Assembly: GCF_900215515.1 (NCBI RefSeq)
Contig: NZ_OBEI01000001.1
Coordinates: 1 to 64,000 of the forward strand
Direction of reading: 5' to 3'
Length of the DNA: 64,000 bases
DNA from: Persephonella hydrogeniphila
GTDB taxonomy: Bacteria > Aquificota > Aquificia > Aquificales > Hydrogenothermaceae
Shown here in pieces: positions 3,421-9,287 of the stretch (its first letter is position 1; each line of letters opens with the position of its first letter). A program made the position numbers and the translations under genes. Under the pieces are notes generated by a model. That model worked only from the letters and a program-made list of their open reading frames with translations, ran no database searches and was not told the origin of the DNA.

Positions 3421-3780
3421 TTATCCTAAACTTTCCTCTATTTGTTTTGCTGCCCTCTTTATTTCCATAAGAAGTAATCCGAGTTTAGCATTTGAAGGAG
3501 CTAAGATTCCTAAAACGGCAAGATCTCCTATACCGGTAAATATCATATATCCTTTAGAACCTTTAACATAAAGTTGTTCCAGAGTTCCCTTGTTCAGTTC
3601 GGTTGTCACCCTTTCTCCCAGAGATAAAATCGCTGCACCCATAGCAGCAACTCTATCTTCATCTATCCCTTCAGGTAAAACCGATGCTATAGCAAGTCCA
3701 TCTGGACTAACAAGTACAGCTCCTTCAGCTCCTGCGTCTCTAACAACGGCCTGCAGTATATCCTCAAATCTACCTGCCAT
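3421..3780 (-). CDS. Roadblock/LC7 domain protein
   Basis: A 119-aa single-domain Roadblock/LC7 protein, the family of MglB and CvnB that regulates small GTPases. Visible features are the AGAEGAVLVSPDGLAIASVL strand pair, the helix AAMGAAILSLGERVTTEL, and the second hairpin LEQLYVKGSKGYMIFTGIG. No transmembrane segment or signal peptide is present, so it is cytosolic. A good GGAGG ribosome-binding site precedes it. It is probably the partner of the GTPase two genes downstream, acting as GTPase-activating protein or nucleotide-state sensor. Confidence 0.9.
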   Translation of the reverse strand: MAGRFEDILQAVVRDAGAEGAVLVSPDGLAIASVLPEGIDEDRVAAMGAAILSLGERVTTELNKGTLEQLYVKGSKGYMIFTGIGDLAVLGILAPSNAKLGLLLMEIKRAAKQIEESLG

Positions 3781-3801
3781 AATTCCCTCCTTGCCTATTT
3801 A

Positions 3802-4848
3802 TTATAAAAAGGCCAACACCTTTTCCAAAAATCTTTTTCTTCTTTTTTCATCAATTATATCATCAGATAGCTTTTCAATCAGATTTTCTAAAACCGGTTT
3901 TGTAAGTTTTTCCTCGTCTATATCCAGTTCTTTTTTTCTCTTTTTAAATAAAAATTTACCGACAGGTCCTATCTCTTTTAAAAGTTCTTCCTGTATTTTG
4001 TTTAGAACATCAGGGTCGTAAAGCTCTAACTCTTCAGACTGTTTTTCTATGACTTCTTCAAGAGAACTTTCTTCTGTAGCTGTTTCCTCCTCTGGCTTCA
4101 AAAGTTCTTCTAAAGGAGGGTTTTCCTCTTCTGGAATTACTATCTCTTCCATAGGAACAGACTCTTCTTTTTTAGGTGTTTCCTGTATTTCTTCCAATGA
4201 TTTTGTCTGTTCAAGCATTTCTAACTCTTCTGCAAATCTATCCTTTACATCTTCAACGGTTATTTCTGGTTTTTCTTCTATCTCTTCTTTTATTTCTACT
4301 TCTTCTTTTTTCTCTTCAGGAAGAACCTCTTCTAAACTTTCTAATTCGATTTCTTCGATGGGAATCTCTTCTTCTTGTAATTCTGTCTCTTTTAGAGATT
4401 CTTCTTCTTTTTGTTCTTCTACCACACTGGTCTCTTCTGTTTCTTCAGTTGTTTCTGTTTCTCCTCCATATATAAATCTATCTAACTCTTCCTCCATATC
4501 TTTTAGTTTTTTTGCTACCGCTTCGTGTTCAAACTTTAAAAGGGCAAATTTAGGTTTTTCTTCTATAACAGAACCTATTGCTACATCAGACCTTACAAAA
4601 TAAATAAAAATAGCTATATCAGGTCCTTCTGCATAAACATACTCCTCTCCAAAATCTGGGATAAACTCATTTATCTGATGGGCTTTGTAGACAATAAGGT
4701 TTAAAATCTCTTTCAGATTTTGCTCTTTGTCTGGATATGCAGATCTTGATACTACAGGTTTATCCTGTATGAATATGCCAGAAAAGGATGCTCCTGTGTT
4801 AATGTATAGCTGGTTTACAATCTCTTTTAATTTATTTTCTGTATTCAT
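3802..4848 (-). CDS. Roadblock-like protein with long Glu-rich linker and conserved C-terminal helical domain
   Basis: A three-part protein of 348 aa. Residues 1-about 120 look like a divergent Roadblock-type alpha/beta domain (GASFSGIFIQDKPVVSRSAY, then AIFIYFVRSDVAIGSV). Residues about 130-270 are a low-complexity, extremely acidic Glu/Thr/Ser linker with EEV/EEE runs. Residues about 275-348 form a helical domain (LNKIQEELLKEIGPVGKFLF) recalling the small GPxAKxL-type C-terminal domain of some bacterial kinases. The architecture suggests a scaffold or adaptor in the GTPase module. I do not recognise a characterised homologue. Confidence 0.7.
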   Translation of the reverse strand: MNTENKLKEIVNQLYINTGASFSGIFIQDKPVVSRSAYPDKEQNLKEILNLIVYKAHQINEFIPDFGEEYVYAEGPDIAIFIYFVRSDVAIGSVIEEKPKFALLKFEHEAVAKKLKDMEEELDRFIYGGETETTEETEETSVVEEQKEEESLKETELQEEEIPIEEIELESLEEVLPEEKKEEVEIKEEIEEKPEITVEDVKDRFAEELEMLEQTKSLEEIQETPKKEESVPMEEIVIPEEENPPLEELLKPEEETATEESSLEEVIEKQSEELELYDPDVLNKIQEELLKEIGPVGKFLFKKRKKELDIDEEKLTKPVLENLIEKLSDDIIDEKRRKRFLEKVLAFL

Positions 4849-4861
4849 TTTATTCCCCAGA

Positions 4862-5263
4862 TTAAATTTCCCCCTCTTCTAACTTTTCCATTATTGTTTT
4901 CATGCTCAGTCTCATTCTCTCAAAAGATTCTGCGAGCTCTGCAAGTTCATCGTTCCCTTCTGCTTTTATCTTGTAATCTAAGTTCCCTGTACTTACTTCC
5001 TGAAGAGCTTTAGATACTTCTTTTATTTTGGAAACAATATACTTGTCTATCAGCAACCGTATTAGATAAACAGGAATTAAAAAGGCTATCTGTATGATTA
5101 TAGTGGAGTATACAGCTTTCAGTGGTGCATCAGGAACACCTGAAGAGCTCAACAGAAAATATACTAAAATACCTACAAACAGAGAGCCTAATACTGAACC
5201 CCCCAAAATTATCAGGGATATCTCATTGAGAATAGACTTTCTCTTTTCCATATTCTCCTCCAA
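4862..5263 (-). CDS. HAMP-domain membrane protein without an output domain
   Basis: A 133-aa protein with two membrane helices (about residues 15-38 and 52-72) separated by a very short external loop, then a HAMP domain (about 75-125; NLDYKIKAEGNDELAELAES). It has no kinase, methyl-accepting or cyclase domain. In conservons the first gene encodes a membrane sensor related to histidine kinases; this looks like a reduced counterpart that could signal to the Roadblock/GTPase genes immediately downstream. It lies 31 bases after the DUF4149 gene and probably shares its transcript. Confidence 0.82.
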   Translation of the reverse strand: MEENMEKRKSILNEISLIILGGSVLGSLFVGILVYFLLSSSGVPDAPLKAVYSTIIIQIAFLIPVYLIRLLIDKYIVSKIKEVSKALQEVSTGNLDYKIKAEGNDELAELAESFERMRLSMKTIMEKLEEGEI

Positions 5264-5294
5264 AGAAAGCGTATAAAAAATGTTCGGTAAATTA

Positions 5295-5795
5295 TTAAGC
5301 TTTCTTTAGTTTTCTCTCTCTTAAGAAATAATATTGAAACAGATAGATTTCAAGGGCAAGGTTGAATAGATTTATTCCACTTGATATCCCATGGACTGTC
5401 TTGAATTTTGATTTTAATTCTAATGCTTTTTCTTTATTTCCTTCTTCTAATTCCCGATAATACTGAATATTGATGCTCCTTGCTACAGGTAAAACCGTTT
5501 TATGAAGTGCCATGTGTGTTATAACAAGGATAAAAATACCTATTACAAAGCCCCTATACTTTTTTATTATCTCTTTATCTTTAAATGATTTGATACCAAG
5601 TAATGTATAGATAACAATACCTATAATCCAACCAGAACCAAAGTAATAGGGGAAGATAACATTTGTTATCTCCCCTGCGGTTCTATGTTCAAAATTGGAA
5701 AAAAGTAAAGGTGCAACAATAAAAGAGAAAAATATATTAAAACCTACAAGTACTCCTAACAGCAGTAAAATTAAAGTGTCTAATAATCTATTCAA
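5295..5795 (-). CDS. DUF4149 membrane protein
   Basis: A 166-aa inner-membrane protein with about four hydrophobic helices. The N-terminal helix (LLDTLILLLLGVLVGFNIFF) followed by APLLFSNFEHRTAGEI is characteristic of the DUF4149/TMEM205-like family, whose function is unknown. The start overlaps the end of ndk by eight bases, implying translational coupling. Confidence 0.78.
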   Translation of the reverse strand: MNRLLDTLILLLLGVLVGFNIFFSFIVAPLLFSNFEHRTAGEITNVIFPYYFGSGWIIGIVIYTLLGIKSFKDKEIIKKYRGFVIGIFILVITHMALHKTVLPVARSINIQYYRELEEGNKEKALELKSKFKTVHGISSGINLFNLALEIYLFQYYFLRERKLKKA

Positions 5796-6210
5796 CTATC
5801 TCTAACCTGCTGAAGAAAAAAGGAATTTCAAACTCTGCTGATTCTTTAGAATCAGAGCCGTGAACAGCATTTTCTCCTATATTTGTACCGTATAATTTTC
5901 TCAGAGTTCCTTCTTCTGCTTCCTCCGGATTTGTAGCGCCCATTATCTCCCTTATCCTTTCAATCGCATTCTCTCCTTCCCATACCATAGCAACTATAGG
6001 ACCAGAAGACATAAATTCACATAATTCATCATAAAAAGGTCTTTCTCTGTGTACATAATAAAACTGACCTGCCTGTTCTTTTGTTAGCTTCAACTTTTTT
6101 AAGGCTACAAGTTTAAATCCTTTCTCCTGTACATGGGCTATTATTTTACCTTCTACACCCTTTTTGACTGCGTCAGGTTTAATTAACATAAGTGTTCTTT
6201 CTACAGACAT
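5788..6210 (-). CDS. ndk: Nucleoside diphosphate kinase
   Basis: A 140-aa cytosolic enzyme that transfers the gamma phosphate between NTPs and NDPs through a phosphohistidine. The N-terminal ERTLMLIKPDAV motif and the active-site NAVHGSDS (His117) are intact, and the length is normal for the family. The start follows directly after the stop of the small NSS-partner ORF, whose last codons (GGAGGAA) supply the ribosome-binding site. Confidence 0.96.
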   Translation of the reverse strand: MSVERTLMLIKPDAVKKGVEGKIIAHVQEKGFKLVALKKLKLTKEQAGQFYYVHRERPFYDELCEFMSSGPIVAMVWEGENAIERIREIMGATNPEEAEEGTLRKLYGTNIGENAVHGSDSKESAEFEIPFFFSRLEIVE

Positions 6211-6345
6211 TTATTCCTCCAAGTTTTGTTTTTTCTTATTATTATACAGTATCTTATAAAATGAATATACATTAAGCCCTATAACAACCCCCCACGAAAT
6301 TGCCATAAAGAGAGCTCCATATCCGTTAAGAAGGTGCCCTTCCAT
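6211..6345 (-). CDS. Small membrane protein, MetS-like NSS transporter partner
   Basis: A 44-codon ORF begins inside the 3' end of the NSS transporter gene (20-base overlap) and stops directly before the ndk start. The product, MEGHLLNGYGALFMAISWGV followed by VIGLNVYSFYKILYNNKKK, has one membrane helix (about residues 10-32) and a basic tail. Its size, topology and position match the tiny MetS-type subunits encoded after NSS amino-acid transporters. The coupling to both neighbours argues that it is a real gene. Confidence 0.72.
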   Translation of the reverse strand: MEGHLLNGYGALFMAISWGVVIGLNVYSFYKILYNNKKKQNLEE

Positions 6346-7867
6346 TTTTTCTCTCCCATGCTTTTTTTATTAGTACGAATCCTAAAATTATCATTACGAA
6401 TAGGAATATCCGTGCTATCCATGCTCCCGGATCTGTTTTTGAAAGAGTAGAAGGTAAAAATTCTATAGACCAGGATATTAGAATAATTACAAGAAATCCG
6501 GGAGCTATGTATTTCATTATGTAATAAAAAACACCGGGAATTTTGATATCGTTATCCCTTGTAAGCTCTTCCCACGCCTTTTTAGAATCATAAATCCAAA
6601 AAAATATAACAGCTTCAAAAAGAGCAAAGATAACAAGGCCCAATGTGCCTACCCAGAAATCTATCTCTCCCAGAGCTCCTTTAATAAAAATAGGTATATG
6701 TGAAGATACAAAAAGAAAAACTCCCAGTATACCAACAGACTTTTCTCTGGAAAGACCGAATTCATCCTCTAAAAAGGCTATTGCTGGCTGGGATAAAGCT
6801 ATTGAGGAGGTTACTCCTGCAAAAAATAAAAGTAAAAACCATATAAAACTGAAAAACTGACCGTACGGAATATTAGCAAAAATGGCAGGAAGTGCCATAA
6901 ATCCAAGATTGAAAGCCCCTTCACTTGCTATAGAAGCTGTTGCTGTTATCCCGAAGAATATAACAGATGCAACTATAGCTATAGAACCACCTAATATAAC
7001 TTCGGCAAATTCATTAACAGATGCTCCTGCAAGACCGTTTAAGGCTATATCATCCTTTGGTTTTATGTATGATGCATAGGTTAAAATAGCACCGAAACCG
7101 ACACTAAGTGTAAAAAAGACCTGACCTGCAGCTGCAAGCCATACTTTAGGATTGGTCAGGGCTGAAAAATCAGGGTTCCACAGAAATCCTAAACCATCTA
7201 AAAAGTTTCTTCCATCAGGTGATGTTAATGTAAATACTCTAATCATAAGCAAAATAGCCATTATGAATATAAGAGGCATCGCAATTTTTGCTACTTTTTC
7301 TATACCTGCACTTACCCCCCTGTAAAGAATGTAAAGATTTATAATTAGTGTTATCAGAAAAAATATATATGTTTCGACTGCAGGTGTTAGAATTATGCCT
7401 TCTGAGTTCTCTCCTGTTTTTTCTATTAGGAAATGTTTAAAAGGTTCTAAATAATCCTTTACATCTGCTGTTAATGGTGTAGATGGCAGTCCACCTACAA
7501 GACTGAAAAAGCTGTACAGGAGTGTCCATGATTCTATGTAAGTGTAGTAAACCACCACAGCAAGAGGTATCAAAACTCCTAAAAAACCAATATACTTTGC
7601 CACCGGATTTTTCCACAGATAGTCAAAAACAGCTACTGCTGTACCATGTCCCCTTGCTCCTCCAAATCTTCCCAGAGCCCATTCTATCCATAGAAGAGGT
7701 ATACCAAGAAGAATAAGAAAAATCATGTAAGGTATCATAAAAGCACCGCCTCCATTATCAGCGGCCTGAACGGGAAATCTCAAAAAGTTTCCTAATCCTA
7801 TAGCATTACCTGCTACTGCAAGTATAAGACCAATACGACTGCCCCAATGTTCCCTTTTTACTATCAT
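6326..7867 (-). CDS. Sodium-dependent transporter, NSS/SNF family
   Basis: A 513-aa polytopic protein of the neurotransmitter:sodium symporter family (LeuT fold). The unwound first helix with the sodium and substrate site is clear (AVAGNAIGLGNFLRFP, then NGGGAFMIPY), as are helix 6 (AAAGQVFFTLSVGFGAILTY) and about 12 membrane spans. The family imports amino acids or small amines with sodium. The substrate is unknown, though the adjoining MetS-like ORF favours an amino acid. First gene of the minus-strand unit running to 2172. Confidence 0.93.
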   Translation of the reverse strand: MIVKREHWGSRIGLILAVAGNAIGLGNFLRFPVQAADNGGGAFMIPYMIFLILLGIPLLWIEWALGRFGGARGHGTAVAVFDYLWKNPVAKYIGFLGVLIPLAVVVYYTYIESWTLLYSFFSLVGGLPSTPLTADVKDYLEPFKHFLIEKTGENSEGIILTPAVETYIFFLITLIINLYILYRGVSAGIEKVAKIAMPLIFIMAILLMIRVFTLTSPDGRNFLDGLGFLWNPDFSALTNPKVWLAAAGQVFFTLSVGFGAILTYASYIKPKDDIALNGLAGASVNEFAEVILGGSIAIVASVIFFGITATASIASEGAFNLGFMALPAIFANIPYGQFFSFIWFLLLFFAGVTSSIALSQPAIAFLEDEFGLSREKSVGILGVFLFVSSHIPIFIKGALGEIDFWVGTLGLVIFALFEAVIFFWIYDSKKAWEELTRDNDIKIPGVFYYIMKYIAPGFLVIILISWSIEFLPSTLSKTDPGAWIARIFLFVMIILGFVLIKKAWERKNGRAPS

Positions 7868-7883
7868 TTCCCTCTCTTTTTAT

Positions 7884-7913
7884 TTGACTGTTTAAAAGTT
7901 AGATTCATATTAT
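7884..7913 (+). promoter_or_regulatory. Candidate promoter for the hemA operon
   Basis: TTGACT at 7884-7889 is followed after 18 bases by TATTAT (7908-7913). A second TATAAT-rich stretch lies closer to the gene (about 7935-7947). Both sit in the gap divergent from the NSS transporter. Confidence 0.45.
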
Positions 7914-7970
7914 ATATAATATCTTAAAACTGGTTATAATATATAATCTGTTTGTTAAATAGAGGTATTA

Positions 7971-9287
7971 ATGGAGATTTTTGCGGTAGGGTTAAATTAT
8001 AAAACGGCTCCGGTAGAGGTCAGGGAAAAACTTGCTATATCAGAAGATAATTATCCTGATATATTAGACAGGATAAACAGAATACCTACAGTATTTGAAA
8101 GCTGTATACTATCAACCTGCAACAGGGTTGAAATTTACGGAATTTCAGACAATCCAGAAGAGTCTTATTCCGATATACTGAAAATCCTTTCTTCTTATTC
8201 AGGACTAAAAGTTGAAGAACTGAAAAAGCATGTTTTTCTGTATACAGACAAGGACGCGATAAGACATATCTTCAATGTATCATCAAGCCTTGATTCAATG
8301 GTAATCGGAGAACCTCAGATAGTCTGTCAGTTCAAAGATTCTTTTACAAAAGCCAGAGAACTTAAAACAGTAAAGCATGTAATGACAAGGCTTTTTGATA
8401 AAGCAATGAATGTATCTAAAAAAATCAGAACTTCTACAGGAATCAGTAAAAGAGCCGTATCTATAAGTTATGCCGCTATAGAGCTTGCAAAAAAAATATT
8501 TGGAGACCTTACAGACAAAAATGTGCTCCTGCTTGGTGCGGGAGAGATGGCAGAGCTTGCAGCAAGACATCTGGCATCTTCCGGTGTGAAACATATTTTT
8601 GTGTCTAACAGAACCTTTGAGAAGGCTGTACAGCTTGCTGATGAATTTGGAGGTTCTGCCATCAGATTTAACAAGTTTTTCGAGTTTTTACCTGAAGCAG
8701 ATATCATCATAGTTTCCACAGGAGCAAAAGAGCCTATTTTGAGAAAGGAGCATTTTAAAAACATAGATAAAGAAAGACACGGAAAACCGGTTTTTATAAT
8801 TGATATATCTGTTCCCAGAAATGTTTCTGATGATGTTAATGAGCTTGAAAATGTGTTCCTTTACAATATTGATGATCTTAAGATGGTTGTAGACAGGAAT
8901 TTAGAAGAGAGGAAGATAGCTGCAGAATCTGCAAAAATACTTATTGATGAAGAGGTGGCAAAATTTGATAGATGGTTAAAGCAGCTTCAGGTAAATCCTG
9001 TCATCGCAAAAGTTAGGAATTATGCTGATGAAATAAGGGAAGCTCAGCTGGAGAGATTATTCAGGGATATGCCTTATCTGAACGAAAAAGAGAGAGAGAA
9101 TATTGATCTTGCAGTCAGAGCTATAATAAACAAAATTCTGCATAGACCTACAATGTATATAAAAGACAGAGCTACAAAAGAGAACAGTGAGGTTTATATC
9201 AATATATTTGATGAGATGTTCAGTTCAAAATGGGATTTAAGAAGAAAGCTTAAATCTGAGAAAAAAGGCAAAAAAAGTGAGAAGTAA
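7971..9287 (+). CDS. hemA: Glutamyl-tRNA reductase
   Basis: A 438-aa enzyme for the first committed step of C5-pathway tetrapyrrole synthesis, reducing glutamyl-tRNA to glutamate-1-semialdehyde with NADPH. The catalytic cysteine is in [10 protein letters not shown] (Cys50), the glutamyl-recognition region reads [13 protein letters not shown], and the Rossmann motif is [16 protein letters not shown]. The dimerisation helices at the C-terminus are complete. A GAGG ribosome-binding site precedes the ATG. lptC begins inside its 3' end. Together with hemH at 27452 this indicates complete haem synthesis in the organism. Confidence 0.96.

Follow-up and report, generated by a model that had tools for sequence, protein, structure and literature searches.

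A small gene paired with LeuT-type transporters probably encodes a divergent MetS-like accessory subunit

Introduction

LeuT is the structural prototype of the SLC6 neurotransmitter transporters, and mechanistic models of SERT, DAT, NET and GAT are for the most part built on it. Studies have treated it as a single polypeptide, whereas a transporter of the same kind in the window analysed here (the whole stretch of 64,000 nucleotides from Persephonella hydrogeniphila) is encoded together with an adjoining small gene. This open reading frame (ORF) lies between the transporter gene and ndk, and its position raises two questions: whether it is a gene at all and, if so, which of its two neighbours its product would serve. 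The relevant features of the locus are as follows.

7867 to 6326, minus strand: NSS transporter, 513 aa, a LeuT orthologue by PF00209, PDB LeuT matches and LeuT identity
6357 to 6353, minus strand: Shine-Dalgarno sequence GGGAG for the small ORF, located within the transporter gene and 7 nt ahead of the small ORF's ATG
6345 to 6211, minus strand: small ORF of 44 codons plus stop (ATG 6345-6343, stop TAA 6213-6211), encoding 44 aa, proposed accessory subunit of the LeuT-type transporter
6326 to 6345, minus strand: overlap of the transporter gene and the small ORF, 20 nt, from the sequence
6220 to 6216, minus strand: Shine-Dalgarno sequence GGAGG of ndk, within the last codons of the small ORF
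6210 to 5788, minus strand: ndk, nucleoside-diphosphate kinase (PF00334 and NF001908), directly downstream of the small ORF

The sequence-only reading had placed the start of the ORF inside the transporter gene, its end directly at the ndk start and the ndk ribosome-binding site in its final codons, and the sequence bears out all three: the 20-nt overlap is present, the ndk ATG (6210) comes immediately after the stop codon, and the GGAGG motif falls within the ORF.

Results

The transporter is a LeuT orthologue

The transporter scores 218.5 bits against PF00209 (27-bit cut-off), and its best PDB matches are LeuT chains (E about 2e-179), followed by MhsT at 1.6e-44. Alignment with LeuT of Aquifex aeolicus (PF00209, NSS/SLC6) gives 54.6% identity over 513 aligned positions, covering the whole length. 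By these comparisons the window transporter is the orthologue of LeuT, that is, a LeuT-type NSS.

The small ORF is conserved and under purifying selection

Length and hydrophobicity alone place the small ORF within chance expectation: 37 ORFs of at least 30 aa overlap positions 3500-9000 of the window, and 39 of the 178 window ORFs of 35-60 aa contain an equally hydrophobic stretch. The case for a gene comes from its relatives. A whole-genome search recovered it in 29 of 41 genomes of the window's family at E 4.7e-7 or better, with three further, weak matches at other places; contigs that match it include ones of Persephonella, Hydrogenothermus and Hydrogenothermaceae. Pooled pN/pS in this family is 0.30 for the whole ORF (all 377 informative pairs give values under 1) and 0.28 outside the overlap (28 sequences), values that are approximate because pS is near saturation. 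Pooled ratios of 0.30, 0.44 and 0.21 in three families indicate purifying selection. The alignment of window-family proteins (A1) leaves out G024 and G028, which encode the same protein as G027, and the partial ORF of G021 was excluded from the pN/pS and sequence comparisons; besides Met1, 12 positions are invariant among 26 window-family sequences. Because it is conserved in the family and under selection, the small ORF is best read as a real, selected and conserved gene, and a chance ORF was ruled out on the same two grounds. Conservation of the frame in relatives and dN/dS were among the checks that the sequence-only reading had pointed to, and both came out in favour of a gene.

The small protein has a single hydrophobic segment (residues 11-29) and AlphaFold2 folds it into one helix (residues 4-42, mean pLDDT 81.6), in line with the single-helix membrane protein read from the sequence at the outset; a lysine-rich tail lies at the C-terminus. 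One face of the helix is conserved in the window's family (the observed value was reached by 0 of 20000 shuffles). The signal is marginal in the Aquificaceae (876/20000), and it was not seen in family f5 (13974/20000). We found no PDB sequence match (one of the query versions lacked the first methionine) and no Pfam or NCBIfam match at E<=10. An assignment to Pfam through eight relatives was tried and dropped, as the matches were weak, inconsistent and all under cut-off.

The gene follows the transporter more closely than ndk

The transporter occurs in 30 of the 41 family genomes, and the other 11 also lack a PF00209 match. The small gene is found in 29 of the 30 transporter-bearing genomes and in none of the 11 without a transporter; the sole exception is G011, where the transporter is cut by a contig end. 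It lies directly after the transporter in 24 of the 29 genomes, and in G021 the two genes are split over two contig ends. When transporter and small gene are adjacent, ndk is directly next in 22 of 24 genomes; in G010 the small gene follows the transporter and ndk is not next. Elsewhere the small gene sits between a fabD-like gene and ndk, with the transporter on another contig (G013), or upstream of a gltX-like gene, distant from both transporter and ndk (G030-G032; neighbour names other than ndk and NSS were read from translations). On this evidence the small gene is associated more strongly with the transporter than with ndk, and ndk is probably merely a co-transcribed neighbour. The description of the ORF as locked between an NSS transporter and ndk thus holds in the window but not generally, given the G010 copy and the other contexts found in other families.

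The transporters of G016 and G030-G032 (L073, L070, L071) carry about 25 extra residues near residue 430 of the window NSS.

Co-occurrence with LeuT-type transporters extends across Aquificota and includes A. aeolicus

One protein of the A. aeolicus genome (G041) is 100% identical to LeuT. A profile built from A1 matched this genome weakly (E 0.0057) and related genomes at E-values down to 9e-7, the matched loci being short ORFs, mostly of 50-57 aa, with the same pattern as in the window's family. The A. aeolicus relative encodes 51 aa, is immediately preceded by a tyrosyl-tRNA-synthetase-like gene and is separated from leuT by about 230 kb, whereas in the window the small gene adjoins the transporter gene. 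An enlarged profile (A2, 35 of the sequences collected at that stage) includes this copy, so that its A2 E-value is circular and the A1 match is the independent one.

Profile A2 matched 76 of 136 Aquificota genomes, many of them absent from its alignment. In raw genome counts, which like the other co-occurrence counts given here ignore kinship, 83 genomes encode a LeuT-type transporter (at least 52% identical to LeuT) and 74 of them have the small gene; it is present in 0 of 19 with only the other NSS clade (45-49%), and in 2 of 34 with no NSS (G047 and G056, both fragmented assemblies). Nine of the 83 LeuT-type genomes lack a copy; two are explained by contig ends (G011 and G117), and the other seven, which are not contig-end cases, include four of the seven NSS-bearing genomes of family f3, whose three copies are unlinked and divergent. 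The association with the transporter proposed from the window alone is therefore upheld by co-occurrence, both in the family and among LeuT-type genomes; LeuT orthology and the A. aeolicus relative had not been mentioned in that proposal.

One f3 transporter (L179:1240-3078, plus strand, 612 aa) exceeds LeuT in length by about 100 residues, and its alignment to LeuT is broken into two matches near residues 215-222. A natural fusion of NSS and small protein was considered for f3 and rejected, the extra length lying near LeuT residues 215-222 and not at the end.

Many unlinked copies carry putative start signals of their own

The arrangement differs between families: in f2 (Aquificaceae-like) the transporter is directly before the small gene in only 3 of 28 copies, and in f5 in 17 of 17 (from coordinates). 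All 20 linked copies that we compared have a Shine-Dalgarno sequence, and none has a -10-like box. Among the unlinked copies (25 from f2 and 3 from f3), a -10-like box precedes the start by 4-9 nt in 16 of 28 and a Shine-Dalgarno sequence is present in 5 of 28, under a -10 rule set after viewing the upstream sequences and with two copies contributed by G063. In the A. aeolicus copy, TAAAAT stands 7 nt ahead of the ATG. These features suggest leaderless transcripts, and the unlinked copies resemble independent genes.

Outside the window's family (f2, f3 and f5; for instance L124, L134 and L139), 43 of 48 small proteins have E-[IV]-T at the very C-terminus; this ending is common to linked and unlinked copies and occurs in 0 of 28 proteins of the window's family.

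The pair recurs in a second phylum

A scan of genome contigs identified four relatives outside Aquificota (L119-L122, including Candidatus Binatota and Candidatus Edwardsbacteria). In L119, L121 and L122 an NSS gene stands directly before the small gene, and PF00209 is present in the genomes of all four. In the phylum of the L119 genome, 22 of 247 sampled genomes have the small gene, all 22 with a LeuT-like NSS. Sorted by NSS identity to LeuT, it occurs in 21 of 22 genomes at 48% or more, in 1 of 6 at 44-46%, in 0 of 21 at 37% or less and in 0 of 198 without a match. The distance from the end of the transporter match is -5 to 134 nt for all 22 copies (adjacency of all 22 is taken from coordinates; 20 of the 22 loci were inspected, and at L241, L245, L248 and L249 the motif showed no clear small ORF upon inspection). 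Taken by these matches and coordinates, the pairing of the small gene with a LeuT-type transporter recurs in at least two phyla.

Two further loci (L282 and L283, in G351 and G373) have a more divergent short ORF that overlaps the end of an NSS gene of 45% identity and was missed by the profile, which suggests that small NSS subunits reach further than the profile detects. Since these ORFs escaped it, the finding of no small-gene copy at E<=0.01 in the other Aquificota NSS clade (g15, g16 and g18) leaves room for a more divergent copy there.

The protein is a divergent relative of MetS-like subunits

The sequence-only reading had likened the ORF to the small MetS-type subunits of some NSS transporters, while noting that it differs from the characterised ones. 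This likeness proved to run through intermediates. The window ORF has no match to NF033493 (MetS_like_NSS, 25-bit cut-off) at E<=10. At the position of the small gene, 2 of 136 Aquificota genomes (G052 and G054, Aquificaceae) score above this threshold, and three more reach 23.6 bits. In hhalign profile comparisons the window family gave a probability of 97.0% against Aquificaceae, 95.4% against f5 and 99.0% against a distant set (L119-L122 and L206). Against a MetS set of three sequences only, Aquificaceae gave 84.6%, f5 84.4%, the distant set 21.7% and the window family 5.6%; the observed scores were reached by 0 of 40 decoys.

In its general features the window protein resembles NF033493 members, which have 30-50 aa, one helix, a position directly after a long NSS gene and a colinear pattern from the start methionine: it is a short single-helix protein, and its ORF overlaps the NSS gene and is adjacent to it in 24 of 29 family genomes. 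It differs in that the MMxxxxxIIWGG-like core seen in the three annotated members compared is missing, the N-terminus is six residues longer, with HLLN, SW...LN..SF is conserved, and the transporter that it accompanies is LeuT-type. Because the NF033493 match is absent and continuity runs via the Aquificaceae copies, we describe the window protein as a divergent relative of MetS-like subunits and do not count it as a member of NF033493.

In plasmid records with incomplete annotation, an annotated MetS-type gene follows three annotated NSS genes of 492-511 codons, and none follows five NSS genes of 437-475 codons; two haloarchaeal NSS genes are followed by a hypothetical protein of 90-107 aa, and two further records have no annotation.

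Discussion

Overall, we consider it likely (roughly 80%) that the small protein is a divergent, MetS-like, single-pass accessory subunit of LeuT-type Na+/amino-acid symporters, a physical complex and an influence on transport being inferred from the genomic evidence. At the window locus it would be made from the transporter message, probably by translational coupling, and would insert as one helix with its C-terminus inside, as the lysine-rich tail implies. The conserved helix face would then pack on the 12-helix transporter, and the small protein would stabilise the transporter or speed its cycle, much like MetS, which is described as the second subunit of MetP and is needed for transport.

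Other readings of the gene must be weighed against this one. It might be no more than a spacer that couples translation of the transporter to that of ndk, its peptide irrelevant in itself, as the overlap, the abutting stop and start codons and the ndk Shine-Dalgarno sequence inside the ORF would allow; selection constrains its amino-acid sequence, however, and the gene is also kept at loci without linkage to ndk, to the transporter or to both, so that we give this idea almost no weight. The same genomes bear on whether the protein partners ndk or nucleotide metabolism. The frequent position of ndk directly behind the adjacent pair (22 of 24) and the G013 copy, which stays with ndk while the transporter lies elsewhere, speak for such a partnership, but ndk does not follow the small gene in G010 or in the inspected f5 loci, family genomes that lack the transporter also lack the small gene, and just 2 of 76 genomes with the small gene are without an NSS, which makes the proposal very improbable.

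A role in biogenesis of LeuT-type transporters only (insertion, folding or protection from proteases), with no stable association, is harder to tell apart from an accessory subunit, given that adjacency and co-inheritance would look identical; it also agrees with the description that LeuT purified from E. coli without the small protein binds substrate and transports in proteoliposomes (PMC10945697). Against it stands the precedent of MetPS, described as a two-subunit NSS transporter with MetS as the second subunit of MetP (PMC3219685). The separately expressed gene distant from leuT fits a subunit and a chaperone equally. On balance, we regard biogenesis alone as unlikely and retain the accessory subunit as the preferred reading. 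Because LeuT works in proteoliposomes without the small protein, the latter is not absolutely required in vitro, and it is more likely to modulate or stabilise the transporter than to be indispensable.

For LeuT itself, we infer an unlinked 51-aa partner in A. aeolicus, and LeuT has apparently been studied without it; titles and abstract openings of the open-access literature searched report no accessory subunit of LeuT. More tentatively, and at somewhat less than even odds, LeuT may natively be a two-subunit transporter, the absence of its (probably leaderless) 51-aa partner explaining part of its very slow turnover in vitro and perhaps shifting the conformational equilibrium. If the natural form of LeuT includes the small helix, kinetic and conformational data from the isolated protein need re-testing. 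What the present comparisons add is a candidate partner of LeuT-type transporters, its recurrence in at least two phyla and an unlinked candidate in the source organism of LeuT. They would place the LeuT clade of several phyla beside the MetP group among NSS transporters with small subunits, and indicate that a partner gene can move off its transporter and thereby escape notice.

A last observation concerns another neighbour. In the window, ndk is followed by a gene for a DUF4149 (PF13664) membrane protein (5295-5795, minus strand), and in three Aquificaceae-like loci (L173:1694-2110, L174:1495-1893 and L176:1587-2003, minus strand) a DUF4149 gene comes directly after that for LeuT. The DUF4149 protein is a possible further partner of LeuT-type transporters.
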